Assembly (NCBI RefSeq): GCF_008974145.1
Contig: NZ_BJKP01000032.1
Span: 1-40,410, forward strand
Source of the DNA: Microcystis aeruginosa NIES-4325
Lineage (GTDB): Bacteria; Cyanobacteriota; Cyanobacteriia; Cyanobacteriales; Microcystaceae
Reading direction: 5' to 3'
Length of the DNA stretch: 40,410 nt
This document shows positions 5,978 through 34,400 of this stretch, one piece after another. Below the pieces are notes generated by a model that had not been told where the DNA came from, did no database searches, and was given only the letters and a program-made list of their open reading frames with translations. The stretch's first letter is position 1, and the number at the start of each line of letters is the position of its first letter. The position numbers and the translations under genes were made by a program.

Positions 5978-7183
5978 CTCAAATTCCGTCCGAATTACCT
6001 CAACTCTGGCAAAATTTGCTTCTTGTAATTTCTGGTTGAGATTTTGAGAAGTAAAACCAGTTTTGTGAGCCATATAGGGCATTCCGGGGACTTCTGTTCC
6101 CATGCCGTAAAACATCCATAAAGCGCGCACCGGACCACCGGGAGAAATATATAAAGGTTCATTTTCCATATCGCCTCTAGCGACAAATTCGGCGGCGGTT
6201 TGCATATCGGGAACCACAATCATTAAAAAGCCTTCAGGTTTAAGAATGCGTTTAAATTCCCCTAGGGCGATGGGAACTTCGTAATGATAAATATGTTCTA
6301 GATTATGACTAGAAAAAACCCCATCGACGGAGTTATCGGGAACGGCACTTAAATCGGTAATCGTTCCTAAAATATCGGGGTTAACAGCAGTATTGATATC
6401 GAGGCGAATTTCTTGCCAATTGCCATCGCGGAATAGTTGGGGTAAGGCTTCGGGATTATAGGGACCACAACCCACATTTAAAACCAGTTTTTTCGGGGAT
6501 TTTAGCGCTGTTATCCCCAGGGGAGCATTCCAAGCTAATAAACAAATATTTTTGAAACCAAGCAAACCGTGATTAGCGACTTGATCATCTAAAATTATCT
6601 GGGCTTGGGGATGGGTTTTAGTAAAATCTTTTATTGCCTGTTGGAGAGTAGGATGCTGACATTTATTGATGATAATTAAAGCGGAATCAGACCAGAAATT
6701 TTTGGCTAAAAGTAAGGAGATCAAGAGAGAGCGATAGTCTTCGGCGGCATCGTAGTAATAAACTCCCAGCTTTTCTTCACTGTTTAATTCTTCCAGATCA
6801 TCGAAAAAGTTTTCCGTTTCTTGATCGCTTAAAAATATCTGTTCTGATAGTTGAAAATCCTCCAAATCCTCAGATAATATAGTTAGTTTTTCTCCCGATG
6901 GATCGTATTTAAAAAAAGCTTCTACACCATAACCGTAGCGATCACTATTATGCCAGAAAGCGGCGACTAAACTACCGCGACGAAAACAACCCACCTGACA
7001 GTAAACCTCGTCCGGTTGCAGACAGTCAACGGCTAGATTGAGCAGGGGAAAAAGATTGCGATCGGGATAAGATGCGGTTTTTTGGCTTAAAAGGGTTAAT
7101 TGCTCGGAAATAGGCGACATTAGAGGCGATCCCCAATCCTGATACTGTTGGGGCAGTTTTTCTAAGAATTTCTGTAAATCCAT
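5954..7183 (-). CDS. Two-domain SAM-dependent methyltransferase
   Basis: A 409-residue protein in two parts. The C-terminal part (about 230-409) is a class I SAM methyltransferase: motif I LNVGCGPY (235-242), acidic LDIN at the end of strand 2, then DNSVDGVFSSHNLEH and FKRILKPEGFLMIVVPD, as in Methyltransf_11 proteins. The N-terminal part (about 55-220) also looks like a methyltransferase fold of the TylF/Methyltransf_24 kind: QVGCFRRGSLVAAF (63-76) resembles its glycine motif, and VYYYDAAEDYRS (141-152) its D-[GA]-x-H-S/Y segment, but with residues altered, so it may be inactive. Substrate unknown; comparable proteins in cyanobacteria often act on glycans or natural products. The 3' end overlaps the DMT gene by 24 bp, tail to tail. 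Confidence 0.8.
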   Translation of the reverse strand: MDLQKFLEKLPQQYQDWGSPLMSPISEQLTLLSQKTASYPDRNLFPLLNLAVDCLQPDEVYCQVGCFRRGSLVAAFWHNSDRYGYGVEAFFKYDPSGEKLTILSEDLEDFQLSEQIFLSDQETENFFDDLEELNSEEKLGVYYYDAAEDYRSLLISLLLAKNFWSDSALIIINKCQHPTLQQAIKDFTKTHPQAQIILDDQVANHGLLGFKNICLLAWNAPLGITALKSPKKLVLNVGCGPYNPEALPQLFRDGNWQEIRLDINTAVNPDILGTITDLSAVPDNSVDGVFSSHNLEHIYHYEVPIALGEFKRILKPEGFLMIVVPDMQTAAEFVARGDMENEPLYISPGGPVRALWMFYGMGTEVPGMPYMAHKTGFTSQNLNQKLQEANFARVEVIRTEFELVAFGYK

Positions 7184-7282
7184 ACCTTGCTTTTCCGAAA
7201 ACTATAATCCTTTTCCAATATCGTAAATCATCGTGCTTGTCATCAGGCACAGACTTAATTGTGGAAGAGTGCTAATCTGGTC

Positions 7283-7378
7283 TATAGCGGTTTTCACAGA
7301 AGTGAGTCCCGATTGAAACCCTGAAACGCCTATCTATCAAGGGATTTACCATACCTTACTAGACTGAAAACCGCTATA
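7283..7378. mobile_element. 96-bp MITE with 14-bp terminal inverted repeats (copy 1)
   Basis: TATAGCGGTTTTCA (7283-7296) and TGAAAACCGCTATA (7365-7378) are perfect inverted repeats bounding 96 bp with no coding capacity. Ends and length match the two elements at 16030 and 16500, although the interior differs. The TA at each end is probably the duplicated target, as in IS630/Tc1-mariner-type elements. Confidence 0.85.
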
Positions 7379-7412
7379 TTATCCCATTAGCACCAGTAGA
7401 GGAACCTCTGAT

Positions 7413-8270
7413 ATGCCCTGCAAATGCTTCCAGATCAAATTTTGGGGAGTACGGGGAAGTGTTCCCTGTCCTGGTTCGGAAACCGTTCGTTATGGTGGTA
7501 ATACTTCCTGCGTGGAGATGCAAGTCGCTGGAGAAAGATTAATCTTTGACGGTGGTACGGGGTTACGCGCCCTAGGACAGTCTTTGATGGCAGAAAGTCC
7601 AGCGAAAGCCTATTTATTTTTCACTCACTCCCATTGGGATCATATTCAGGGTTTTCCTTTTTTTATCCCCGCTTTTATCAGGGGCAATACTTTTAAAATA
7701 TATGGGGTTTCCTCTGCCAACGGGACAACCATAAAGCAAAGATTAGACGATCAGATGTCACATCCTAATTTTCCCGTGCCTTTGCAGACTATGGGATCCG
7801 ATTTAGAATTTTATAATCTAGAAATGGGCGAAACCCTCTACTGTGGGGATGTCAGCGTCGAAACCCGTCCTTTAAATCATCTGGGAGAAGCGGTGGGTTA
7901 TCGGGTAAATTGGCAGGATTTATCGGCAGCTTATATTACCGATACCGAACATTTTTCCGATCGCCTTGATGATAACGTTCTGGCTTTGGCCTGGCAAGCG
8001 GATGTCATGATTATTGATGCTACCTACACCGATGAGGAATACAACGATCCTAAGTATTCTAAGGTGGGTTGGGGTCATTCCACTTGGCAGCAGGCAGTCA
8101 AAATCGCTAAGACAGCGCAAGTTAAGCAGTTAGTTCTCTTTCATCACGATCCCGCCCATAATGATGATTTTCTCGATCTCATTGGGGAAGAGGCAAGAAA
8201 GATTTTCCCTGAAACTATTCTCGCTCAGGAAGGACTCTCGATCGAACTACAAATTCACCATCAGAAGTAG
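7413..8270 (+). CDS. MBL-fold metallo-hydrolase
   Basis: A 285-residue metallo-beta-lactamase-fold protein. The zinc-binding motif H-x-H-x-D-H is present as HSHWDH (72-77), with the preceding FDGGTGLRALG strand-turn (45-55), further ligands likely in PLNHLGE (about 149-155) and IDATYTDEEY (about 203-212), and HH near FHHDPAH (about 248-254). It resembles the PhnP/RNase Z-like branch in which such enzymes cleave phosphodiesters or cyclic nucleotides; the true substrate is not evident. GAGG about 14 bp upstream fits the ATG at 7413. The N-terminal CKC is unusual but within the family's variation. It stands alone between a MITE and an empty stretch. Confidence 0.85.
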   Translation: MPCKCFQIKFWGVRGSVPCPGSETVRYGGNTSCVEMQVAGERLIFDGGTGLRALGQSLMAESPAKAYLFFTHSHWDHIQGFPFFIPAFIRGNTFKIYGVSSANGTTIKQRLDDQMSHPNFPVPLQTMGSDLEFYNLEMGETLYCGDVSVETRPLNHLGEAVGYRVNWQDLSAAYITDTEHFSDRLDDNVLALAWQADVMIIDATYTDEEYNDPKYSKVGWGHSTWQQAVKIAKTAQVKQLVLFHHDPAHNDDFLDLIGEEARKIFPETILAQEGLSIELQIHHQK

Positions 8271-8563
8271 CTAGAAATTTATCCAAACCTAAATCAATCC
8301 CTAAGGGATGTCCTTGAAAGAGAACATTAGGGACATTGACCTTTTATGGCATTGAAAGCATCATAAAGTATCCGGATGCTCGCCTGACAATCTGGGCTTA
8401 TTTAATTTCAAAACCTTACTGCTTATCTTTATTCCCAGGTTATCCACACAGAATATCAAGTTGTATTAGTTGACTCCAGATGGTCGGTTTTATTTATTTG
8501 TCACCATTCATCTCTCTAACGGGAGTCCTCTTGCGACCTTAAGATAGATTTACCAGAAAATAC
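8271..8563. other. Intergenic region without a recognised gene
   Basis: About 290 bp between the hydrolase and the convergent cobM gene. Both strands carry many stops, and no hairpin with a T-run is obvious. It contains GACATTGACC and other strings that look like worn-down element sequence, but nothing I can name. Confidence 0.35.
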
Positions 8564-9352
8564 CTAAGGATGAGGACGGAAAAGATGGGAATGTTGCGGG
8601 TGATAAAGTTGCGATCGAGTTCCTCTAATCTGGTTTAAAGCGGGACTAATTAAATAAAGGGTAGTTCTAGTTAAATTTTCTCGATGGGTTAGTTGGGCCA
8701 TCTCTGACAGGGGGACAACCCAGATTTTTTCGTCGGGCCAACCGAGACGGAAACAAACGGCCACCTGTTGCTTTGGTGGGTAGTGTTGTAGAAGTTTTTC
8801 CTGGGCTTTGTCAATGTGACGGGCGGCTAAATATAGGCATAAACTAGCTTTATGGGCGGCTAAAGAGGCTAATTCTTCACTTTCTGGTATATGAGATGCT
8901 TTCCCTTCCACCCGGGTTAGAATAATTGTCTGGACTAATTCCGGAATCGTTAATTCTAGGGCTAATTTGGCCGCTAATCCTTGAAAGGCACTAATGCCGG
9001 GGATTAGCTGAAAGGGGATATCTGCTGCTGTCAAAAGATGAATTTGTTCTTGGATGGCACTATAGAGACTTAAATCCCCCGATTGCAGTCGCACCACCGC
9101 TAAACCCTGACGCACGCGATCAATCATTAAAGGGATAATTTCCTCCAGGGTGATGCTACTGGTGGGAATTAACTCGGCATCTTTACGGGTATCCTCAAGA
9201 ATCTGTTTGGGGACGAGGGAATCAGCAAAGAGGATAACATCGGCTTTTTGGAGAATTTTATAGGCTTTTACCGTCAATAATTCCGGATCTCCAGGGCCAG
9301 CACCAATAAAGTAAACGGCCGGGGGGAGAGGAGAGGAGTCAATTAAAGTCAT
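8564..9352 (-). CDS. cobM: Precorrin-4 / cobalt-precorrin-4 C11-methyltransferase
   Basis: This 262-residue SAM-dependent methyltransferase adds the C11 methyl group in the corrin ring of cobalamin (B12) synthesis. Family marks are the N-terminal glycine-rich loop VYFIGAGPGDPELLT (13-27), ILFADSLVP, VVRLQSGDLSLYSAI (about 86-100) with the GD-x-S pattern, and PGISAFQGLAA (about 118-128). Cyanobacteria use the cobalt-early route and the CbiF/CobM enzymes are homologous, so either name applies. The ATG at 9352 is embedded in the repeated string GGATTTAGTATGA (see repeats), so the gene's first bases touch a repeat end. A stand-alone gene here, with no other cobalamin genes in view. Confidence 0.9.
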   Translation of the reverse strand: MTLIDSSPLPPAVYFIGAGPGDPELLTVKAYKILQKADVILFADSLVPKQILEDTRKDAELIPTSSITLEEIIPLMIDRVRQGLAVVRLQSGDLSLYSAIQEQIHLLTAADIPFQLIPGISAFQGLAAKLALELTIPELVQTIILTRVEGKASHIPESEELASLAAHKASLCLYLAARHIDKAQEKLLQHYPPKQQVAVCFRLGWPDEKIWVVPLSEMAQLTHRENLTRTTLYLISPALNQIRGTRSQLYHPQHSHLFRPHP

Positions 9353-9511
9353 ACTAAATCCTGTTTAAAAGGGGTGTGGGGTGTGGGGTGTGGGGTGTGG
9401 GAATTATGAAGTGGGGAGAAGGGAGAAGGGAGAGGGGAGAGGGGAGAAGGGAGAATAAATAAAAACAATCTCCTGAATACTGAATCCTGTCTCCTGAATA
9501 CTGAATCCTAT
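9351..9511. repeat. Cluster of short tandem repeats upstream of dnaB
   Basis: In order: ATACTAAATCC (9351-9361), shared with 15308, 15399 and, reversed, 15488; TGGGGTG-type heptamers (9371-9401); GGAGAAG/GGAGAGG heptamers (about 9414-9454); and a 21-mer beginning CTCCTGAATACTGAATCC repeated twice at 9470-9490 and 9491-9511. The cluster separates cobM from dnaB and holds their divergent promoters, if any. Confidence 0.85.
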
Positions 9512-9586
9512 CATTAACCTGAACATTTGTATTTAATTAGGGTGAAACTGACTATAATTAATGATAAAGCACGGTCAGCATTGACA

Positions 9587-12205
9587 ATGATTAGCGATCA
9601 ATCCCTCCCCCCCCAAAATATTGAAGCGGAAGAATCTATCTTAGGTGGTATTTTACTAGACCCAAAAGCGTTAGGTAGAATCAGTGATTTTTTAATTCCA
9701 GAAGCTTTCTATGTGAAAACCCATCAAGATATTTATCGTGCGGCACTCGCTTTGCAAGGGAAGGGAAAACCGACGGATTTAATGACGGTTAGCAGTTGGT
9801 TACAGGATAATCATCTGTTGGAAGAAATCGGGGGAATGCCGCGATTGTTACAATTAATTGAGCGCACTGTCTCGGCCGCTAACATCGATCGCTATGCTGA
9901 ATTAGTGATGGATAAATATATGCGTCGTCAGTTAATTTCCACTGGGGGAGAAATTATCGAGTTAGCCAGGGATACGACGCTAGAATTAGAAAATGTTTTC
10001 GATGAATCGGAACAAAAGATTTTTCGTCTCACCCAAAAACGACCCCAAGAGGGTTTAATTTTTCTGGGGGATACTTTAATTGAAACTTTTAACGAAATTG
10101 AGAAAATGCAAGAGACGACCACTCTACCCGGTATCGAAACTCAATTTTATGATCTCGATGCGATGACCAGTGGTTTACAACCCTCGGATTTAGTTATTAT
10201 CGCAGGTAGGCCTTCCATGGGAAAAACTTCTTTTGCTCTTAATATTGCCTATAATATCGCTCAACAGAATTTACCTGTGGCTGTCTTTAGTTTGGAGATG
10301 TCCAAGGAACAATTAGCCCAACGTTTGTTATCGAATGAGGCTAAAATCGAAAGTAATCGGATTCGATCAGGCCGTTTGGGACAAAATGATTTAGAGAAGG
10401 TTCTTGGGGGACTAGAAAAGTTATTAAATTTGCCTATATATATCGATGACAGTGCTAATTTAAGTGTAATTCAAATGCGTTCCCAAGTGCGGCGTTTACA
10501 GACAGAAAAAAAGGGACAAATCGGATTAGTTTTAATCGATTATCTGCAATTAATGGAAGGAGGAGGTGATAATCGCGTTCAGGAACTTTCTAAAATTACC
10601 CGCAGTCTTAAGGGTTTAGCGAGAGAAATTCATGCTCCAGTAATTGCTCTTTCTCAGTTAAGTCGCGCTGTGGAATCTCGCAATAATAAAAGGCCGATGA
10701 TGTCCGATTTACGCGAGTCGGGATGTTTAGCAGGTGATAGTTTAGTTGAGTTAGCCGATCCTCGTGCTAAAGTGCCAATTTGTGAGTTAGTGAATTGCTC
10801 TAATTTTACGGTTTTTGCTCTTAATGAGGAAACAATGAAATTAGAAAAAGCACTGGTAACTAAGGTCTTTTCCACAGGATTTAAGCCAGTTTTTCGATTA
10901 ACAACTCGTTTAGGCCGCACGATTAGAGCTACAGCCAATCATCAATTTTTGACTGTTCACGGTTGGCAAAGATTAGATGAATTAAATATCGGTAATTATA
11001 TCGCTTTACCTCGCTTTTTACCTAGTTCGCAATTACAAACTATGAGTAATACTGAATTAGCCTTATTAGGTCATCTAATTGGTGATGGATGTACCTTACC
11101 ACGTCATAGTGTTCAATATACGACTAAAGAGTTAGATTTAGCCAATTTAGTTGCTTCTTTAGCGATACAAGTATTTGATAATCGAATTAATCCTCGAATT
11201 AGTCCTGAACATCAATGGTATCAGGTTTATTTAGCAGCGAATTATCCCTTAACTCATAATATTAAAAATCCTATTTCTCAATGGTTAGAACGTCTAGGAG
11301 TTTGGGGGTTACGTTCGTATGAAAAATTCATTCCTCCTCAAGTTTTTGAGCAAACTCAATCAGCAATAGCCTTATTTTTACGTCATCTTTGGAGTACCGA
11401 TGGTTCCCTTAAATTGGTTCAAGGAAAATCACCTCGTCCTATCGCTTATTATTCTAGCAGTAGCTTAAGATTAGCTCAGGATGTACAATCGCTTTTACTA
11501 AGAGTAGAAATTAATGGAAAGCTATCGAAACACTCACAAACAGGAAAAGGACGAGATCAATACCATGTTACAATAACAGGTAAATCAGACTTGAAGAAAT
11601 TTACTGAGATTATCGGTGCTGTTGGCAGCTATAAAACCCAGTCTTTACAAGAAATAACTACTTATCTTCAAAATCACCAAGCTAATCCTAATAAGGATAT
11701 CATTCCTAACGATATCTGGCGACTATATGCTGTACCCGCTATGGAACAAAGTGGTTTAACTACACGACAAATGCAAGCTGCACTTGGTAATCAATATTGT
11801 GGGACAAGTTTATACAAATCAAACTTAAGTCGAGAAAGAGCCAATAAATTAGGAGACATTCTTGAATGTTCCCAAATACAGCACTTAGCTGATAGTCATA
11901 TTTACTGGGATGAAGTTATGGCAATTCAAGCGGATGGAGAGACAGAAGTGTATGATTTAACAGTAGATAAATTGCATAACTTTATTGCCAATAATATCAT
12001 CGTCCATAATAGTATCGAACAGGATGCGGATTTAATTATGATGTTATACAGAGATGAATATTATAACCCCGACAGTCCCGATCGAGGTGTGGCTGAAGTA
12101 ATTATTACTAAACACCGTAACGGTCCTACTGGCACAATTAAGCTACTTTTTCAACCAGAATTTACCAAGTTTCTCAATCTTAAACAAAGTCGCTCTAATT
12201 ATTAA
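9587..12205 (+). CDS. dnaB: Replicative DNA helicase DnaB with an in-frame intein
   Basis: DnaB is the hexameric helicase that unwinds DNA at the replication fork. From the ATG at 9587 the precursor is 872 residues; I prefer this start to the TTG at 9527 because MISDQSLPPQNIEAEESILGG is the standard N-terminus. The N-terminal primase-interacting domain spans about 10-150; the RecA-like ATPase follows with Walker A GRPSMGKT (207-214), VFSLEMSKEQ and the Walker B region LVLIDYLQLM. After RESG (376-379) the reading frame enters a 429-residue intein and resumes with SIEQDADLIMMLYRDEYY at 809. The spliced helicase would be 443 residues, the normal DnaB size. The gene starts after a repeat cluster; a glycosyltransferase gene begins 1 base after its stop. 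Confidence 0.96.
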   Translation: MISDQSLPPQNIEAEESILGGILLDPKALGRISDFLIPEAFYVKTHQDIYRAALALQGKGKPTDLMTVSSWLQDNHLLEEIGGMPRLLQLIERTVSAANIDRYAELVMDKYMRRQLISTGGEIIELARDTTLELENVFDESEQKIFRLTQKRPQEGLIFLGDTLIETFNEIEKMQETTTLPGIETQFYDLDAMTSGLQPSDLVIIAGRPSMGKTSFALNIAYNIAQQNLPVAVFSLEMSKEQLAQRLLSNEAKIESNRIRSGRLGQNDLEKVLGGLEKLLNLPIYIDDSANLSVIQMRSQVRRLQTEKKGQIGLVLIDYLQLMEGGGDNRVQELSKITRSLKGLAREIHAPVIALSQLSRAVESRNNKRPMMSDLRESGCLAGDSLVELADPRAKVPICELVNCSNFTVFALNEETMKLEKALVTKVFSTGFKPVFRLTTRLGRTIRATANHQFLTVHGWQRLDELNIGNYIALPRFLPSSQLQTMSNTELALLGHLIGDGCTLPRHSVQYTTKELDLANLVASLAIQVFDNRINPRISPEHQWYQVYLAANYPLTHNIKNPISQWLERLGVWGLRSYEKFIPPQVFEQTQSAIALFLRHLWSTDGSLKLVQGKSPRPIAYYSSSSLRLAQDVQSLLLRVEINGKLSKHSQTGKGRDQYHVTITGKSDLKKFTEIIGAVGSYKTQSLQEITTYLQNHQANPNKDIIPNDIWRLYAVPAMEQSGLTTRQMQAALGNQYCGTSLYKSNLSRERANKLGDILECSQIQHLADSHIYWDEVMAIQADGETEVYDLTVDKLHNFIANNIIVHNSIEQDADLIMMLYRDEYYNPDSPDRGVAEVIITKHRNGPTGTIKLLFQPEFTKFLNLKQSRSNY
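10724..12010 (+). mobile_element. DnaB intein with LAGLIDADG homing endonuclease domain
   Basis: The intein runs from Cys380 (CLAGDSLVEL) to Asn808 (IANNIIVHN) of the precursor, followed by Ser+1. Splicing motifs are present: nucleophilic Cys1, block B RATANHQFLT with the TxxH-type His, block F YDLTVDKLHNFIA and the penultimate His-Asn. The middle carries two dodecapeptide-like blocks, LLGHLIGDGC and LFLRHLWSTDGS, with their acidic residues, so the endonuclease may still be active. It sits between RESG and SIEQ in the ATPase domain, the same site as the well-known Synechocystis DnaB intein. All key residues look intact, so splicing is expected. Confidence 0.95.
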
Positions 12206-13966: not shown

Positions 13967-15283
13967 ATGACTTTTCTAATTCCGACTAGCGTTTGGCGGC
14001 AAATTCTTAAAAAGCTCCCTATACTACTATTCTTAGCATCTTTTCTAATAGTCGTATTCTTAGGCTATTTTTCTGCCGCTTTCTCTCAAAGTCGAGATCC
14101 TGATATCCGCGGTGTTTGGATCACCACCAACGATACTGCGATGCTGATGGACAGGGATAAACGACAACAGGCGATCGAGCAATTAGTTAATCTTAATTTT
14201 AATGCTATCTATCCCGTGGTCTGGAACTCCGGTTATGCTCTCTATCCCAGTGCGATCGCCCAACGGGAAGGAATACAGCCTTTTGTGCCTACGGGAGCGC
14301 AGGGACAAGATATCTTGGCAGAATTGGTGGAACAAACCCGTGGCAGGGGATTATTGGTCATTCCTTGGTTTGAATTCGGATTTATGGCTCCTCCCACCTC
14401 AGAATTAGCCTTAAAACATCAGGACTGGTTAACCCAAAAACGTGACGGGGGGACCACTTGGGTGGGGGCAGCCGGTGAGGTGGTGTGGTTGAATCCTTTC
14501 CGTCCCGAAGTGCAGAATTTTCTGCGGGAGTTAGTCTTGGAAGTAGTGGGACAATACGATATTAACGGCATCCAATTCGACGATCATCTGAGTTTACCAA
14601 ACGAATTCGGCTATGATCCCTATACTATCGCTCTTTATCAACAGGAAACCGAAAAAACGCCCCCAGCTAACCCCCGGGATCCCGAATGGACAAAATGGCG
14701 GGCCGATAAAATCACTGCTTTTCTGGCTAATCTCAAAGAATCAATTCAGGCAATTAAACCGAATATACTGCTTTCGATCGCCCCTAATCCCTACGAATTC
14801 GCCTATAATGGTCATCTACAGGATTGGCTCGGTTGGGTGCGGCAAGGATTAGTCGATGAGTTAATCGTACAGGTTTATCGTCCCGATCTGCCCAGTTTTC
14901 TCAAACAATTAGAGCGTCCCGAAATTCAGGAAACCCAGCAAACTATCCCCACCGGTGTGGGAGTTTTAACCGGTTTACGCAATCGACCGATTGCCCTACA
15001 CTTTATTGAAGAAAAGGTATTGGCTGCTCGTCAACGGGGTTTAGGGGTGATTTTCTTCTTTTATGAAAGTCTCTGGCAGCAAGCTTTGGAACCTCCAGAA
15101 ACCAGAAAAGCGGCAATTCAAGCGATGTTTTCGCAACCCATCACTCCCCGTCTTCCCGTGCTGGAAAATATTCCTTTGATTAGTACACCTGAACCTATTG
15201 ACCAGCCAGAACTAACCCCCACACCTCCCCCCTTAGCGCCGGACGGGATCGAAATTCCTGTAATTCCCCCTCCGGGTAGTTAA
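13967..15283 (+). CDS. GHL10-type glycoside hydrolase-like protein (DUF187), membrane-anchored or secreted
   Basis: A 438-residue protein with an N-terminal hydrophobic segment (about 18-42, ending SAAFSQS) that is a signal peptide or membrane anchor. The main domain (about 45-385) is a TIM-barrel-like glycosidase of the 'family 10 glycosylhydrolase' (GHL10) group: DIRGVWITTNDTAML at the first strand, NFNAIYPVVWNSGYALYPS, IPWFEFGFM, and GIQFDDHLSLP, in which the Asp pair is at the expected catalytic strand end. The C-terminus is proline-rich (PELTPTPPPLAPDG) and probably extends into the periplasm or cell wall. The likely substrate is a cell-surface polysaccharide or peptidoglycan, which cannot be settled here. 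Intact, with 182 bp upstream that include a CTCTTGC/GCAAGAG inverted repeat (13816-13846). Confidence 0.85.
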   Translation: MTFLIPTSVWRQILKKLPILLFLASFLIVVFLGYFSAAFSQSRDPDIRGVWITTNDTAMLMDRDKRQQAIEQLVNLNFNAIYPVVWNSGYALYPSAIAQREGIQPFVPTGAQGQDILAELVEQTRGRGLLVIPWFEFGFMAPPTSELALKHQDWLTQKRDGGTTWVGAAGEVVWLNPFRPEVQNFLRELVLEVVGQYDINGIQFDDHLSLPNEFGYDPYTIALYQQETEKTPPANPRDPEWTKWRADKITAFLANLKESIQAIKPNILLSIAPNPYEFAYNGHLQDWLGWVRQGLVDELIVQVYRPDLPSFLKQLERPEIQETQQTIPTGVGVLTGLRNRPIALHFIEEKVLAARQRGLGVIFFFYESLWQQALEPPETRKAAIQAMFSQPITPRLPVLENIPLISTPEPIDQPELTPTPPPLAPDGIEIPVIPPPGS

Positions 15284-15553: not shown

Positions 15554-16419
15554 TCAGAGTAAATCTTTCAGTCCTACGGTGATATAATTTTGATTTTGAT
15601 TGGTATTTTTGATAAACTTAACAACGATTTTATCTCGTTCTTCTAATAGGGTTTCTAGGGTTAATAAATTTGATGTTGTAGATTGAGAGAGAATTTTATA
15701 TAAGGTACTCTCCCCCCGATTATAGTCTGGCTCATTTTCCTTGGCAATATCACTATCTTTAATTTCGTTGCGATTATAAAAAATGATTCCTCTGAAATGC
15801 ACACATATTTCTGTATCTTGATAGTTTTTCTGGGGATTAGCATGATTATTGAGAGTCAGAAGCATATAGATTCTATTCATCCCGCTTTGAAATTTACCAG
15901 CAATCTGCTTTAATGTGCTTTCTTTGTCTTTTTTTGCCTGTAGGGATGCTTTGAGTTCAACTAAACAAATTTGCAGATGATAATTGAGAATTTTACCCCC
16001 ATCATCGACTTTTCTCTGTAAAACTAATATATAGCGTTTCTGATTCACAAGAGGTACATTTACGATTATGAACAGCTTAATCAGCAAAGATTTAACTGTA
16101 CCGCACAGATGCGAGAACCGCTATAGCTTTTTCAGGGGTTTTGCCAAAAGCAGAGATACCGGGTAACTTTTCTTCTTCTTTTTCTTCTAAATTGATAACC
16201 CAGATTTTATCTACTTCTGTAGATATATTTTTGTCATTTTTAGACGATAACTGTAAGTGATTAATAACTACTTTCTTTAAATCGCTCTTATTTGTTTCTT
16301 GAATTTCAATATACGCATCCTGACTAAGGCAGATTTCTTCAATAAAACCCGATTTTTCTAAAGCTTGATGAAACTTTTGTCTAAGGAAAAAAATTTTTTT
16401 TTGAGTTAGACTTACTCAT
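15554..16419 (-). pseudogene. Broken PD-(D/E)xK-like protein, partner of the upstream ATPase
   Basis: From the ATG at 16419, which overlaps the reconstructed ATPase stop by 8 bases (ATGAGTAA), the frame reads MSKSNSKK, shifts at an A9T7 run (plus-strand 16387-16402), continues RQKFHQALEKSGFIEEICL and LPGISAFGKTPEKA, and is then interrupted by a 96-bp MITE (16030-16125). Removing 94 bp (element plus one TA) joins GKTPEKAI to LVLQRKVDDGG in frame, and removing one base of the homopolymer repairs the rest. The result is a 256-residue protein. D107-D108 followed by VELK (122-125) resembles the D...ExK core of PD-(D/E)xK nucleases; this is inference. The open 177-codon frame from 16087 has a false N-terminus made from MITE sequence. 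Confidence 0.7.
16030..16125. mobile_element. 96-bp MITE (copy 2), inserted in the nuclease-like gene
   Basis: Ends are TATAGCGTTTCT and AGAACCGCTATA, inverted repeats with one mismatch. It aligns without gaps to copy 3 at 16500 with 19 differences in 96 bases (about 80% identity). Deleting it together with one TA target copy restores the interrupted reading frame, which fixes its borders. Confidence 0.88.
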
Positions 16420-17969
16420 TCTCTGTTAAATAGATATGGTTGGTTAAAATTTCTCCAGATTTCTGCACGGAGTTGATAACTTCTTTAAAGTTACGAAAAT
16501 ATAGCGTTTCTTGTTAGTCAGAGGTACATCATCGATGTTGAAAATTTTAATCAGCAAAGGTTTAAGTGTGCCACACAGATGTGAGAACCGCTATAAACAC
16601 CATATTGACTGGTTCCATAATCAATAATTTTATCACCCGTGAAAAAGTAAACCCCTAAGTCTTCTTTAGCAATTTAAATTTCTGGATTTAAATTTTTTAA
16701 TTGATTATCCTCAATGATTTTTGTGACATCAACATCATAACTTTTTAGGGTATGAAGATAAACATAATTGTTGAGAATATCAGTTAAAATCGGGCTATGG
16801 GTGGTGATCAAAACCCGATTATCATGCTCGGTGACAAATTGAACTAAAATATCCATTAAGCGAATTTGATTTTCGGGATGCAAATTAACCTCTGGTTCAT
16901 CTATCATTAAAAAATTGTATTTTTCCCTTGCCCAATATTTGAGATAAAGATACAAGATAGTCAACTGATTGACTGAAGATGAAGCTAGATACATGGGTAA
17001 ATCTTTGCTTTCATCGAATTTAAAAGAAAATTGAATAGGTGCGATCAATTCTAGACTAGAAATCGTGATTTCTCCTCCCATTAATCCGCTCATCTTTTCA
17101 ATCAGAGAATTATAAACTGAATTAATTTTTTTCTTGGTATTGAGAGAATAAAGCGACTCAATCACTTTATTCATTGGTTCTGTATAAGACCTTTTGGGTA
17201 ATTGTTCCCGAAGACGTTTGAATATATTTTTATTAGTATCACCATCATCATCAATATTTTCTATTAATTCTAAAAATAGACGGTTAGACTCAATTCTCTT
17301 ATTTCTTTCTATCTCATAAATGTACTGGTAGAAAACAGGAAAAAAGCTACGACTAGCGGGGATAAAAAAAGTATCTTCTGTCTGAGACAAAAGCACTGTT
17401 ATTACTGACGAAATAATTACTGATTCCTTGGATGGTTTAGCTCTCTCAAAAAAGTCTCTGGGTATTTTATCAAATACTTTCTCAGGGATATTATTCTCTT
17501 TTATATTTATTGTTAGGCTACCTTTGCGCTTGCTAATCTGTAAATACTCCAGATCATTGTCAACAACAAAGGTTAATCTGAAGCTTTTATCTTTAAATTC
17601 TTTAATATCCGCTTGAAAAATTAATTTATTGGAACTAATAATCGTTTCTTTAATACTGGCATCAAGATTATAAGTATTAACAACTTCTTTTTCAATAAAT
17701 CGGCTAAATTTATTGAGAATCTCATTGATTAGTTCTTGATTGATAGTAATTTTTTTAATAGGTTTTTTAGAGTCAATTACTAAAGAATCAATTTGGTTAT
17801 TTTCGGAAAACTTTCTAATATTGTCATGATTAAAAATTGTCCATAAAAGCTGAGAAACTAGGGTTTTGCCACTATTGTTGTAGCCAATAAAAGTATAAAA
17901 CTTCTTGGTTAAATCTATAGCTTGATTATTATTTCTAATTGATCCCAAATTCTTGATCAGTAGTTCCAT
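16412..17969 (-). pseudogene. Broken AAA15/OLD-like ABC-type ATPase
   Basis: The ATG at 17969 (MELLIKNLGSIRNN) is chosen over 17987. Walker A is GYNNSGKT (29-36), the signature-like region YLASSSVNQLTILYLYL lies shortly before Walker B FLMIDEPEVNLHP (353-365), and the H-loop is LITTHSP (388-394). This is the domain order of AAA15/AAA21 overcoming-lysogenization-defect-type ATPases, common in anti-phage and toxin systems. The frame stops at TAA 16676-16674, but the same frame continues IAKEDLGVYFFTGDKIIDYG, then is cut by a 96-bp MITE (16500-16595). Excising 94 bp joins SQYGVY to FRNFKEVINS and ends LTENE at 16412, giving exactly 488 codons. The gene starts 52 bp downstream of alaS on the same strand, after a hairpin. 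The TAA and the MITE make it a pseudogene; without them it would be about 487 residues. Confidence 0.8.
16500..16595. mobile_element. 96-bp MITE (copy 3), inserted in the ATPase gene
   Basis: Ends are TATAGCGTTTCT and AGAACCGCTATA. It differs from copy 2 at 19 of 96 positions. Removing it with one TA leaves GGT-GTT-TAT-TTT-CGT in frame with the ATPase, so the target site was TA and the insertion is 94 bp net. It is not a multiple of three and shifts the frame. Confidence 0.88.
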
Positions 17970-18006: not shown

Positions 18007-18039
18007 TTTTAAAGGTGGACAAAATGCCCACCTTTAAAA
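18007..18039. terminator. Hairpin directly behind alaS
   Basis: TTTTAAAGGTGG (18007-18018) pairs perfectly with CCACCTTTAAAA (18028-18039) over 9 bases. It touches the alaS stop codon (18040-18042) and lies upstream of the ATPase. The following U-run is weak, so termination would be partial. Confidence 0.65.
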
Positions 18040-20664
18040 CTATTGTAAACTGCTAGTTAACTGACTTTTGGCCTTAGCTAAAGCTTCGCTTAACTTACTA
18101 GCATCCCGTCCCCCAGCTTGAGCTAAATTGGGACGACCACCACCACCACCGGCGCAGATTTGAGCGATCGCACTGATAAATTTACCCGCTTGTAAACCCT
18201 TATCTTTAATCACCCGGGAACTAAAAGCGGCCACTAAACTCACTTTATCAGCTGCGGGAGTCGAGGCCAAAACCACTGCCCCTTCCCCTAATTTTTGCTG
18301 TAGTCTTTCGGCTGCGGCCATCAAAGCATGAGCATCAATATCGCCCAAAGAAGCGACTAATAGCTTAAATTCGCCGATAGATTCAGCTTGAGATAGCAAA
18401 GCATCTGATTTATTTAGTGCTAACTCCTGTTTAACCGCTTCTAACTGCTTTTGTGTCCCCTTTAACTCCGATTGTAGGGCCGTAATGCGATCGGGAATTT
18501 CCAGAGGTTTGACCTTAAAGCGATCGCACAGATCCCGCACCACCTGATCCCGTTCATTCAGGTATGCTAACACGGCAGGGCCGGCCACCGCTTCGATGCG
18601 ACGAATTCCCGCAGCGATTCCCGTCTCAGAGATGATTTTAAATAAACCGATCTCGGCGGTATTTTTAACGTGAGTTCCCCCGCATAATTCCATAGAAACG
18701 CTAGGAATATCGATAACTCGCACTTCTGAGCCGTATTTCTCGCCAAACATGGCAATAGCTCCCTTTTGCTTCGCTTCTTCCAATCCCATCACCGCTATCT
18801 CGGTGTCATGCGCTTCGGCAATCCAAGTGTTAATCTGTTCTTCCACCTGTTGTAATTCAGAGCTAGTCAGGGGACGAGGACAGTTAAAATCAAAACGGAG
18901 GCGATCAAAACTGACGAGGGAACCCGCTTGGGAAATCCCAGCATCGACAAGCTTTTTCAAGGCCGATTGTAGCAGATGGGTGGCGGTATGATTAGCTTGG
19001 GCGCGACGACGACAGGAGCGATCGATCTGAGCATTAATTGTATCGCCGGTGGTGACAATTCCCCGCTCAATCCCACCAAAATGGATAAAAATCCCCGATT
19101 CTTTCTGCACATCCTCAACGCGGATAAGCAGATTCTCGCCGGTTAAATAACCCTTATCACCGATTTGTCCACCCGATTCGGCATAAAAAGGGGTTCGATC
19201 GAGAACTACCTGCACCTCAGTGCCTGCTGCGGCCAATTCCACCGTTTTACCAGCGACTAAAACCGCCGTTACTGTTGCGGTTGCTTGCAAATCCGTATAA
19301 CCGAGAAATTCCGTCGGGTGAATATGTTCCGCCAGCTTATCTAAACTACCCTGTACCGTCAAATCTATGGTTTCTTGGGCGGCTTTCGATCTTTGCTGCT
19401 GTTTTTTCATTTCCTGCTCGAAACCCGCCGTATCGACGCTTAAACCCTGCTCCTCGGCGATTTCTTGAGTGAGTTCCAGGGGGAAGCCATAGGTATCATA
19501 AAGGGTAAAGGCATCAACTCCCGAAATCTGGCTTTTTTCTTTTTCTAGAATCGATTCGAGCAGTTTTTCGCCTCTTTCTAGGGTTTCTAAAAATCTCGCT
19601 TCCTCTCGCTCTAATTCTGCCTTGATCACCCTTTCTCGTTCCCGAACATTGCCATAGACGGACTCGGAAAGAGCGATCGCAACTTCCGCCACTTTGCTGA
19701 TAAATTGACCTTCAATACCGATTAAACGCCCGTGCCGTACTACTCTCCGAATCAGACGACGCAGGACGTAACCCCTGTCAGTATTCGATGCTGAGATACC
19801 ATCCGCTATCATGTGTACTACCGAGCGCACATGATCACCGATGACTTTTAGGGAAACTTTCGTTTTTTCGTCCGCTTTCTGGTAGTCTATGGCTGCTAAC
19901 CGGGCTGCTTCGGCGACAATCGGGAAAATTAGGTCAGTTTCGTAGTTATTGGCGACTTTTTGCAGGATTTGCGCCATCCGTTCCAAACCCATCCCCGTAT
20001 CGATATTTTTATTCGCTAGGGGTGTCAGATTGCCGTCTGCGTCGCGGTTATACTGCATGAAGACGAGGTTATAAAACTCGATAAAACGGCTATCATCCTC
20101 TAAATCGATGGTTTTATCCCCTAATTCCGGGTGAAAATCGTAGTAAATTTCCGAACAGGGACCACAGGGACCCGTGGGACCTGATACCCAAAAGTTATCC
20201 GCTTCGCCCATTTTTTGGATACGATGGGCAGGAATACCGATTTTATCGCGCCAGATAGCGAAAGCTTCCTCATCTTCCCTAAAGACACTAACTACTAATC
20301 TTTCGGGGGGAAGGTTAAAAACTTCTGTGGACAATTCCCAGGCCCAGGCGATCGCTTGTTCTTTAAAATAATCACCAAAGCTAAAATTGCCCAACATCTC
20401 AAAAAAAGTATGATGTCTGGCAGTCCGGCCGACATTTTCGATATCGTTGGTGCGAATACATTTTTGGGAAGTGGTAGCGCGGGGAAATTCTGGGATCTTT
20501 TGCCCTAAGAAAATCGGCTTAAAAGGGAGCATTCCCGCAATAGTCAGCAAAACGGTGGGATCTTCTGGGACTAGGGAGGCACTAGGGAGAATTTTATGGT
20601 TTCTGGCCGCAAAAAAGTCTAAAAATCGCTGGCGAATCTCGCTTCCGCTTAGGTGGTTACTCAT
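18040..20664 (-). CDS. alaS: Alanyl-tRNA synthetase
   Basis: The 874-residue enzyme charges tRNA-Ala, and its length is normal for the family. The class II catalytic domain starts with [18 protein letters not shown] and contains FKPIFLGQ and [17 protein letters not shown] (motif 2 region), then [19 protein letters not shown] and [16 protein letters not shown] (tRNA recognition). The editing domain has [13 protein letters not shown], where the HxxxH zinc/editing motif lies, and a downstream MELCGGTHV. The C-terminal C-Ala/DHHA1 domain ends with the glycine-rich [17 protein letters not shown]. All parts look complete. It is followed closely by the decayed ATPase island. Confidence 0.97.
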
Positions 20665-24852: not shown

Positions 24853-25578
24853 CTATTTTTCACTCCAGACGGGATGGGAGAATAAAGAGGCAGCCACTCT
24901 CACCCCGCGCAGTTGATTTAACAGGGGTAAATGGCCCACGGGAGCACTTAAATCCCAGATAAATTCTTGGGGGTATTTTGTCCAATTATTGCCATTTTTC
25001 CAACCAATTTTCGGCCAGAGTTTCGGGAAATCTTGACCCACACCGATCCATAATTTGCGCTGCACCGACCAACCGAATTTTCCTTCTGAATGAACTAACC
25101 AAAGATGATCAATAGTCTGAATGTCAACCTTGGGAAAAGCTTCTACTTCCGTAAAATAGACCCATTTCCTCTGTATTGCTCCTTCTCCTGCTAATTCACA
25201 GAGTTTTTGACGGGTGAGACTATCGGCAGTTTGAAAATCCTGTTTAGCCAATAATTCCTGTAAAAGTCGATAATCGATACCTTTAGCACTATCTAGGGGA
25301 ACAATACCCGTGGGGAAATAATTAGCTAAAAATTCCTTGCTCTGAGTGCTATTATCTTGATAGAGCAATTGATAAGCCTTACCTGTCACCAGATTAACAG
25401 GAGTGGGGCGCTGGGCTAATAAAAAATCTCTCAATACGGTTAGGCCACCTTCTCCCTCCCCGGCTAATCGTGTCAGGATCTGTAATTGATTTTTCGGCGA
25501 CTCGGTGGCTAATTGACTCATCTTACGGGTAATATCCTCGCTCTGTTCTTCTACTAACACGCCATTCTGGTCAGTCAT
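24853..25578 (-). CDS. gun4: GUN4, tetrapyrrole regulator of Mg-chelatase
   Basis: A 241-residue protein that binds Mg-protoporphyrin/protoporphyrin and activates Mg-chelatase in chlorophyll synthesis. The C-terminal GUN4 domain begins near residue 95 with SAKGIDYRLLQELLAKQDFQ and contains RKWVYFTEVEAFPKVDIQTID, the greasy-palm region, then SEGKFGWSVQRKLWIG. The N-terminal helical domain (about 1-85) is that of cyanobacterial GUN4. The length is close to that of the Synechocystis protein. It diverges from lysA with 228 bp between. Confidence 0.93.
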   Translation of the reverse strand: MTDQNGVLVEEQSEDITRKMSQLATESPKNQLQILTRLAGEGEGGLTVLRDFLLAQRPTPVNLVTGKAYQLLYQDNSTQSKEFLANYFPTGIVPLDSAKGIDYRLLQELLAKQDFQTADSLTRQKLCELAGEGAIQRKWVYFTEVEAFPKVDIQTIDHLWLVHSEGKFGWSVQRKLWIGVGQDFPKLWPKIGWKNGNNWTKYPQEFIWDLSAPVGHLPLLNQLRGVRVAASLFSHPVWSEK

Positions 25579-33228: not shown

Positions 33229-34350
33229 ATGAATGGCAACATTAGAGTCGGGAATCTCTTTGGAATTCCCTTTTATATTAATCCTTCTTGGTTCTTTGTT
33301 CTGGGGTTAATTACCTTAACCTATGGGGGAGATTTAAGTCAGTTTCCCCAGTTAACGGGAATCATGCCCTGGCTCTTAGGATTTTTTGCCGCTATCCTCC
33401 TATTTGCCTCCGTGGTTGCCCACGAATTAGGCCATAGTTTTGTTGCTATCGCCCAAGGTATTGAAGTCAAATCAATTACCCTCTTTTTATTCGGTGGTTT
33501 GGCAACTCTTGGCAGAGAATCGAAAACTCCCCTAGAAGCGTTTCTAGTAGCAATTGCCGGCCCTTTAGTTAGTTTACTGCTCTTCGGTATCTTCCTAATT
33601 GTTGGTCTCAATATTAGTTTAAGCGCGCCCCTGGCGGCGATTCTTTCTCTCCTGGCCTATATCAACCTCGCCCTAGGGTTATTTAACCTGATACCCGGTT
33701 TACCTTTAGATGGTGGTAATATCCTTAAAGCCGTCGTTTGGCAAGTAACTGGTAATCCCAATAAAGGGGTTTTATTCGCTAGTCGTTTCGGTCAATTTTT
33801 TGGTTGGTTAGCGATTGTCATAGGTGCGCTATCAATTCTCGGAATCAGTCAATTTGGTAGTTTTTGGACGCTATTAATTGGCATTTTCCTCCTACAAAAT
33901 GCTGGCTTTTCCGCCCAATCAGCTAAGGTTCAAGATTTCCTAAGTCGCTACAGTGCTAAAGATGTTATCTCTCCTAATAGTCCTGTAGTTCCGATTAATT
34001 TAACCCTGCGCGAGTTTGCTAATAATTATGTTATCGGTAAACAACAATGGTCTAAATTCCTAGTTACCGATAGCGAAGGTAAACTATTAGGAGTGATTAA
34101 TGTAGAGGACCTGAAAACGATTCCCACTTCCCAATGGACAGAGGTAAATATCGGTCGGTTATTACACACTAGCGAAAGTCTTAAACTGGTTTTGTCTCAT
34201 ACTTCCCTCCTAGATGTGGTAAAAATTTTGGAAGGAGAAAATTTATCTCAAGTGACAGTGGTAGAAGAAAACGGCACAGTTTTGGGGTTAATTGAGAAAG
34301 CTTCTATCCTTACTTTTCTCGCCCAAGAAACCCAAAGTCAAACCACTTAA
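33229..34350 (+). CDS. Site-2 protease family membrane metalloprotease with CBS domains
   Basis: A 373-residue M50 intramembrane protease. The zinc motif is HELGH (65-69), with the Asp ligand in LPLDGGNIL (about 163-171) between membrane helices. The C-terminal part (about 240-373) has two CBS-type repeats (SAKDVISPNSPVVPINLTL; ...FLVTDSEGKLLGVIN), which usually sense nucleotides. The ATG at 33229 with GGAG upstream is preferred over 33121, where the start lies in a hairpin. Such proteins may process membrane-bound regulators or transporter precursors in cyanobacteria; the substrate is unknown. It diverges from ruvA. Confidence 0.9.
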   Translation: MNGNIRVGNLFGIPFYINPSWFFVLGLITLTYGGDLSQFPQLTGIMPWLLGFFAAILLFASVVAHELGHSFVAIAQGIEVKSITLFLFGGLATLGRESKTPLEAFLVAIAGPLVSLLLFGIFLIVGLNISLSAPLAAILSLLAYINLALGLFNLIPGLPLDGGNILKAVVWQVTGNPNKGVLFASRFGQFFGWLAIVIGALSILGISQFGSFWTLLIGIFLLQNAGFSAQSAKVQDFLSRYSAKDVISPNSPVVPINLTLREFANNYVIGKQQWSKFLVTDSEGKLLGVINVEDLKTIPTSQWTEVNIGRLLHTSESLKLVLSHTSLLDVVKILEGENLSQVTVVEENGTVLGLIEKASILTFLAQETQSQTT

Positions 34351-34400
34351 TCAGTTATCAGTTATCAGTTATCAGTGAGCAGTTATCAGTTATCAGTTAG
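34351..34400. repeat. CAGTTAT tandem heptamers
   Basis: TCAGTTA/CAGTTAT is repeated about six times immediately after the site-2 protease stop; the same heptamer reappears at 39252-39270. Confidence 0.88.

Follow-up and report, generated by a model that had tools for sequence, protein, structure and literature searches.

Structure and lesions of the gene pair

The window analysed here is the whole 40,410-nucleotide contig NZ_BJKP01000032.1 of Microcystis aeruginosa NIES-4325. Its minus strand carries two overlapping genes, both of which are broken. The upstream gene (16412..17969, with its ATG at 17969 and its last stop at 16412) encodes an ABC/OLD-type ATPase similar to PD-T4-4_A, the ATPase of the anti-T4 system PD-T4-4. 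The downstream gene (15554..16419, with its ATG at 16419 and its stop at 15554) encodes the partner, a candidate PD-(D/E)xK nuclease of the PD-T4-4_B type. The stop of the ATPase gene and the start of the partner gene lie in a shared stretch of eight bases, ATGAGTAA (16412..16419, minus strand), and the same overlap is found in the intact relatives L009 (Microcystis wesenbergii FACHB-1317) and L015. An initial annotation of the window had described a decayed operon of an ATPase and a partner with this eight-base overlap, and we find the same two genes and the same overlap.

Each gene has two lesions. The readable open reading frame of the ATPase (16674-17969, minus strand, or to 17987 from an upstream in-frame GTG) has 431 codons from the ATG at 17969 and ends at a premature in-frame TAA at 16674-16676. 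The 3' part of the same gene is interrupted by a 92-bp miniature inverted-repeat transposable element (MITE) at 16502..16593, flanked by TA at 16500-16501 and 16594-16595. In the partner gene, the frame shifts at or near an A/T homopolymer run just 3' of the start (16387..16402, minus strand), and a second 92-bp MITE copy is located at 16032..16123, flanked by TA at 16030-16031 and 16124-16125. The homologous part of the partner gene can be read at 15554-16031 on the minus strand. With four lesions over two genes, NIES-4325 should produce neither protein in full, and the module is dead in this strain.

When compared with relatives without the element, each element together with its TA duplication adds a net 94 bp. 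The initial annotation had removed one 94-bp unit from each gene and obtained 488 codons for the ATPase and 257 codons plus one base for the partner. These lengths follow arithmetically from the element coordinates, and each unit is indeed a MITE with its TA. The in-frame TAA of the ATPase gene was missed in that reconstruction.

A search of the strain's own genome with the region gave at least 44 matches, one being the region itself and at least 43 others falling on the two elements; these counts are lower bounds, as scoring covered 40 of the 130 first-look candidates. The window elements are therefore not chance repeats. All eight aligned copies, two from the window and six from elsewhere, start with TATAGCG and end with CGCTATA, and the short inverted repeat with the TA duplication defines a multi-copy MITE family. 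Such ends with a TA duplication are typical of MITEs mobilised by IS630/mariner-type transposases. The two window elements are about 80% alike, and their nearest other genomic copies reach 99% and 97%. Since each is closer to a copy elsewhere than to the other, they look like two separate insertions. The insertion sites were compared over 13 relative loci, one of which (L151) lacks the pair; several genomes are represented by two of these loci, so that fewer than 13 genomes were compared. The ATPase element is absent from all 12 loci with the pair. The site of the partner element could be compared in nine of these 12, and it is empty in all nine.

The ATPase

The ATPase of the window matches the Pfam families AAA_15 (2e-22, above the cut-off of the family) and AAA_21 (3.8e-15). 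Walker A, Walker B and H-loop motifs are present as quoted in the initial annotation, and its assignment to the AAA15/OLD-like ATPases is confirmed. The best PADLOC model is PD-T4-4_A, with 2.9e-35 for the piece readable in the window. For an intact copy the match covers residues 1-477 of 491 and positions 1-450 of 460 of the profile (PDLC04033, E 2.6e-36). All 11 cyanobacterial ATPases match this model at E <= 1e-10, with a best value of 2.1e-36. The models AriA, PDC-M47A, GajA, PtuA and OLD rank after it.

A FastTree phylogeny of 62 ATPases, midpoint-rooted, with exact duplicates and viral-contig ATPases of 420 residues or fewer left out, places the 11 cyanobacterial proteins in one clade with support 1.0. 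This clade joins 19 ATPases whose partners are PD-T4-4_B-like or PDC-M47B-like and two with a partner of another type. The joint group of 32 has support 0.75 and stands apart from the ATPases with other kinds of partners, where partner types on viral contigs were labelled by eye. The ratio of nonsynonymous to synonymous substitution rates (dN/dS, pairwise, NG86) is 0.19-0.42 for the ATPase in Microcystis (10 pairs from 5 copies, one of which sits beside a split partner) and 0.17-0.34 in the other family surveyed below (10 pairs from 5 copies). The ATPase is thus under clear purifying selection.

On the viral contigs L103-L144, ATPases of this broad class stand beside partners of several other types. 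One of these types has a SPDALF...FIEFKEG pattern like that of PD-(D/E)xK proteins, and the three partners of these types that were tested found no match in Pfam.

The partner protein

No credible match for the cyanobacterial partners was found in Pfam, PADLOC or NCBIfam. With the PADLOC model PD-T4-4_B, none of the 12 partners matches at E values up to 10, although most matches above about 0.1 are removed by the filters of HMMER. Neither does any AriB, GajB, PtuB or PDC-M47B model of PADLOC match them. The 12 aligned partners have 230-253 residues, and E39, E42, K49-K50, W74, E79, E93, E120-L-K122 and K141-F142 are invariant in all of them, with Q at position 137 in just three. E42, E93 and E120-L-K122 make up a PD-(D/E)xK-like pattern with E where D is usual. 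The initial annotation had proposed a PD-(D/E)xK core from a D-D pair and the E-L-K motif; such a pattern is there, but the D-D pair (D104-D105) lies in a loop present only in the three Microcystis rows of the 12.

The relation of the partner to a known class comes from profile comparison. Five named distant relatives of the ATPase, on four plasmids and one Vibrio phage, were examined out of 39 records with an ATPase match. In all five the downstream partner has 184-210 residues; four of these partners best match PADLOC PD-T4-4_B and one PDC-M47B. Sixteen viral-contig loci, with near-duplicates among them, also have a partner of PD-T4-4_B or PDC-M47B appearance as judged by eye. Compared with the five named partners only, the cyanobacterial profile is not significant (probability 1.7%). 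When the 12 cyanobacterial partners were compared by hhalign with 18 class members, the score was 36.5 (P 6.1e-5, probability 65%) over 116 columns, which take in the E-E/K-K block and the (E/D)xK block. The near-duplicates L087, L091 and L092 were excluded from the 18 class members, which are nevertheless not independent, since L065 and L101 are apparently one phage protein (identical in their overlap) and L088, L089 and L090 are close kin. As controls, 20 column shuffles scored 9.4-17.2, the reversed alignment 15.4 and two other partner types 13.2 and 16.0.

The low-confidence structural model of the partner has a helix, three strands, a helix and a strand among its elements, which is the element order of the PD-(D/E)xK core. 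Fold searches gave no confident fold for the partner, and no well-supported non-nuclease fold either. The dN/dS ratio of the partner is 0.59-1.10 in Microcystis (6 pairs from 4 copies), where distances are small and the ratios accordingly rough, and 0.26-0.65 in the other family (10 pairs from 5 copies). The partner evolves faster than the ATPase in both groups and is almost unconstrained in Microcystis.

On the viral contig L067, a 1073-residue protein (7057-10278, minus strand) next to a pair of the class resembles, as judged by eye, a NACHT-type NTPase with a nuclease-like stretch at its N-terminus.

Occurrence of the pair

Twelve Microcystis genomes, including that of the window, were surveyed. 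Both frames are full length in four of them (G003, G004, G009 and G010). In another four (G005, G006, G007 and G011) the ATPase is full length, but the partner has been lost, truncated, split or frameshifted; the state of G006 is uncertain because its cut falls close to the end of a contig. The ATPase is broken in two genomes, the window's (G000) and G008, and the remaining two (G001 and G002) lack the pair. The site is fixed behind alaS, the alanyl-tRNA synthetase gene, and the alaS flank was matched in all 12 genomes. In the two genomes without the pair the similarity ends roughly 20 codons after the start of the ATPase gene. The place of the pair is taken in G001 (L166, 2294-2843) by a BrnT toxin and a BrnA antitoxin, and in G002 (L151, 8396-10972) by a BrnA-like gene, so labelled by eye from its likeness to the G001 protein, with a PIN-domain gene and an IS605 OrfB/TnpB gene. 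Judged from these sequences, the site behind alaS is a small exchange site in Microcystis.

Searched with a profile built from six Microcystis partners, 386 sampled cyanobacterial genomes yielded 15 with a match. Five of these belong to the window's genus, the window's own genome among them, and the remaining ten to two further families within the order. In all ten genomes outside the genus an ATPase homologue lies immediately upstream on the same strand, with the ATPase cut by a contig end in two and the partner broken in one. A family-wide search found the partner in 13 of 217 genomes, and the ATPase adjoins it in 12 of these 13; the exception is a 48-codon remnant. When both searches are pooled, there are 14 distinct genomes outside the genus, and the partner adjoins the ATPase in 13 of them. 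The initial annotation had compared the pair with the layout of known defence modules and asked whether intact homologues are adjacent; homologues are adjacent in 13 of these 14 genomes, and both frames are intact in the four Microcystis genomes named above. In the other family the pair is located behind one aminotransferase gene at six of the seven loci with enough upstream sequence, with one further gene in between at two of the six. The aminotransferase family was assigned by a test at L054 and by sequence likeness seen by eye at the other loci.

Flanking genes and other features of the window

In the window, alaS (18040..20664, minus strand) flanks the pair on its upstream side, and a GHL10 glycosyl-hydrolase-like gene (13967..15283, plus strand) flanks it on the other. 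The gap between alaS and the ATPase gene contains a terminator-like hairpin of 15 pairs (18007..18039, minus strand), with a similar sequence in four relatives as seen by eye. As it separates the two genes, transcripts of alaS are less likely simply to run on into the ATPase gene. Eleven promoter-like matches were counted, no more than the mean of 12.8 in shuffles, and terminator-like matches are hardly commoner than in shuffles (2 against 1.6).

The initial annotation had suggested looking for a defence island. No defence genes were found among the ten neighbouring window proteins tested, and an island was not seen. A GUN4 protein (24853-25578, minus strand) matches PADLOC PD-T4-6 at 5e-32 through its GUN4 domain, which is likely a false defence call in cyanobacteria.

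Some further features were recorded. In L011 (5468-9832) the DnaB, PMT_2-like and GHL10 genes are flipped relative to the pair when compared with the window, which amounts to a local inversion. The DnaB replicative helicase gene of the window (9527-12205, plus strand) has an in-frame intein with a LAGLIDADG domain. Its open reading frame has 892 residues in the window and L010 and 456 and 458 residues in L009 and L011, respectively, so this intein is apparently gained and lost among these genomes. Short 7-bp tandem repeat arrays are located at 2325-2454, 9371-9455 and 34350-34399, with one 21-bp array among the first.

Interpretation and alternatives

We consider it likely that the window holds a pseudogenised two-gene phage-defence operon, which represents a divergent cyanobacterial branch of the PD-T4-4/WonAB class, an OLD-type ABC ATPase combined with a PD-(D/E)xK-type nuclease. 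The defence role is suggested by the relatives PD-T4-4 and WonAB, and nuclease chemistry and an abortive mechanism are predicted on the same lines. By analogy with these relatives, the ATPase of intact copies would dimerise on ATP, bind the partner and hold it. On sensing infection it would release the partner or switch it on, and the partner would then cut nucleic acid, so that phage growth is stopped at a cost to the cell, that is, by abortive infection.

The alternative that survives best is an addiction pair similar to a toxin-antitoxin system, in which the ATPase does no more than restrain a toxic partner, without phage sensing. Overlapping genes would suit such a pair, as would the toxin-antitoxin genes at the same site in the two Microcystis genomes that lack it, and the four genomes with a full-length ATPase beside a damaged or missing partner look as if a toxin had been lost first. 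However, an antitoxin without its toxin should decay, yet the ATPase is the better constrained of the two proteins. For WonAB, simple sequestration was tested and excluded by the authors, as reported in PMC12137116, with WonB toxic only in the presence of active WonA. We judge an addiction pair unlikely.

Next comes the possibility that the partner is not a nuclease, with the E-L-K motif and the distant profile link being coincidental and the partner serving an SMC/OLD-like ATPase as a sensor or as some accessory subunit. The failure of family models and fold searches agrees with this. Several details of the profile comparison also weigh against the nuclease assignment: E93, the Glu at the place of the catalytic D, is one position off the D of the class, the Q of the class is not kept in the cyanobacterial partners, and one other partner type scores 29.0 against the class profile, so that a distant likeness is not unique within this set. 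Against a coincidence, the score of the cyanobacterial partners is about twice that of the top shuffle, the EE/KK and (E/D)xK blocks occur in the same order, and the modelled order of helices and strands, at low confidence, would suit a nuclease core. WonB and PD-T4-4_B are themselves reported as predicted PD-(D/E)xK nucleases in PMC12137116. A non-nuclease partner seems improbable to us on this balance. A housekeeping ATPase pair for DNA repair or nucleoprotein handling, inherited vertically beside core genes, is very improbable: the fixed places by alaS and behind the aminotransferase gene and the lack of defence genes among the tested neighbours would fit it, but the pair is patchy both among the sampled cyanobacteria and within the one family searched, it is absent, broken, cut short or half lost in most of the Microcystis genomes (absent from two, damaged in six), and relatives of its class are found on plasmids and on phage or prophage contigs.

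If the pair is a defence operon, the window is a clear case of a candidate of known kind dismantled by MITEs and point damage, which is an ordinary fate. As the partner escapes the PADLOC models, PADLOC sees this candidate module through one of its two genes only and would not count the branch as a complete system. A wider reading, which we hold as possible but tentative, is that ATPase-nuclease immunity has a branch of its own in cyanobacteria, in which the nuclease is remodelled (Glu for the active-site Asp, and 20-70 extra residues relative to the five named members) and the genes are kept at fixed chromosomal sites behind housekeeping genes and not on mobile elements. Were this true, the partner would be a costly abortive-infection effector that Microcystis discards time and again, and its frequent loss and near-neutral divergence in the genus would be signs of this. 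Bloom-forming cyanobacteria are under phage pressure, which matters ecologically.

Comparison with known systems

The initial annotation had regarded intact homologues as candidates for an undescribed pair. This is not borne out, as PD-T4-4, WonAB and an operon of an OLD-ABC ATPase with a novel restriction endonuclease (REase) are already in print. PD-T4-4 is an anti-T4 system of E. coli named after its selection phage (Vassallo et al. 2022, PMC9519451), and a review (PMC10952713) lists it as AAA_15 with a PD-(D/E)xK domain. The cyanobacterial pair shares with it the ATPase family over nearly the full length and the order of A followed by B, and the partners are tied by profile comparison. The differences are that the cyanobacterial partner is not recognised by PD-T4-4_B models, that it is longer than the partners of the five named members, and that the pair is chromosomal beside core genes, whereas PD-T4-4 is described on an integrative element (PMC9519451).

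Among the PADLOC candidates, PDC-M47A matches all 11 cyanobacterial ATPases (best 3.1e-26), but PDC-M47B fails on the partner described here, and the cyanobacterial plasmid pair L066 is a clear PDC-M47. PARIS (AriA/AriB), Gabija, Septu and OLD show similarity in the ATPase domain, with AriA at 2.6e-27, which is weaker than the PD-T4-4_A match. The OLD-ABC ATPase and novel REase operon has, by its description, the same architecture as the cyanobacterial pair, and PMC12137116, which cites the ABC-ATPase survey for it, gives homologues in 0.96% of bacterial genomes.

In WonAB, as described in PMC12137116, a predicted PD-(D/E)xK nuclease whose lysine is essential comes after an OLD-ABC ATPase, and the authors relate the system to PD-T4-4. 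According to the same report, defence requires WonA as well as WonB. Overproduction of WonB carrying its active-site lysine is toxic only alongside active WonA, and the DNA stays intact while translation stops. The arrest would come about perhaps through cutting of tRNA or rRNA. The cyanobacterial pair is like WonAB in architecture, and the two are linked through PD-T4-4 by the statement of that paper; WonB is given as 16.1 kDa (PMC12137116), against the 230-253 residues of the cyanobacterial partner. On the sequences compared, the putative nuclease of the cyanobacterial branch looks distinct from that of the known class members. The branch thus offers a natural contrast to the WonAB class now under experimental study, with the same ATPase and a strongly diverged candidate nuclease.
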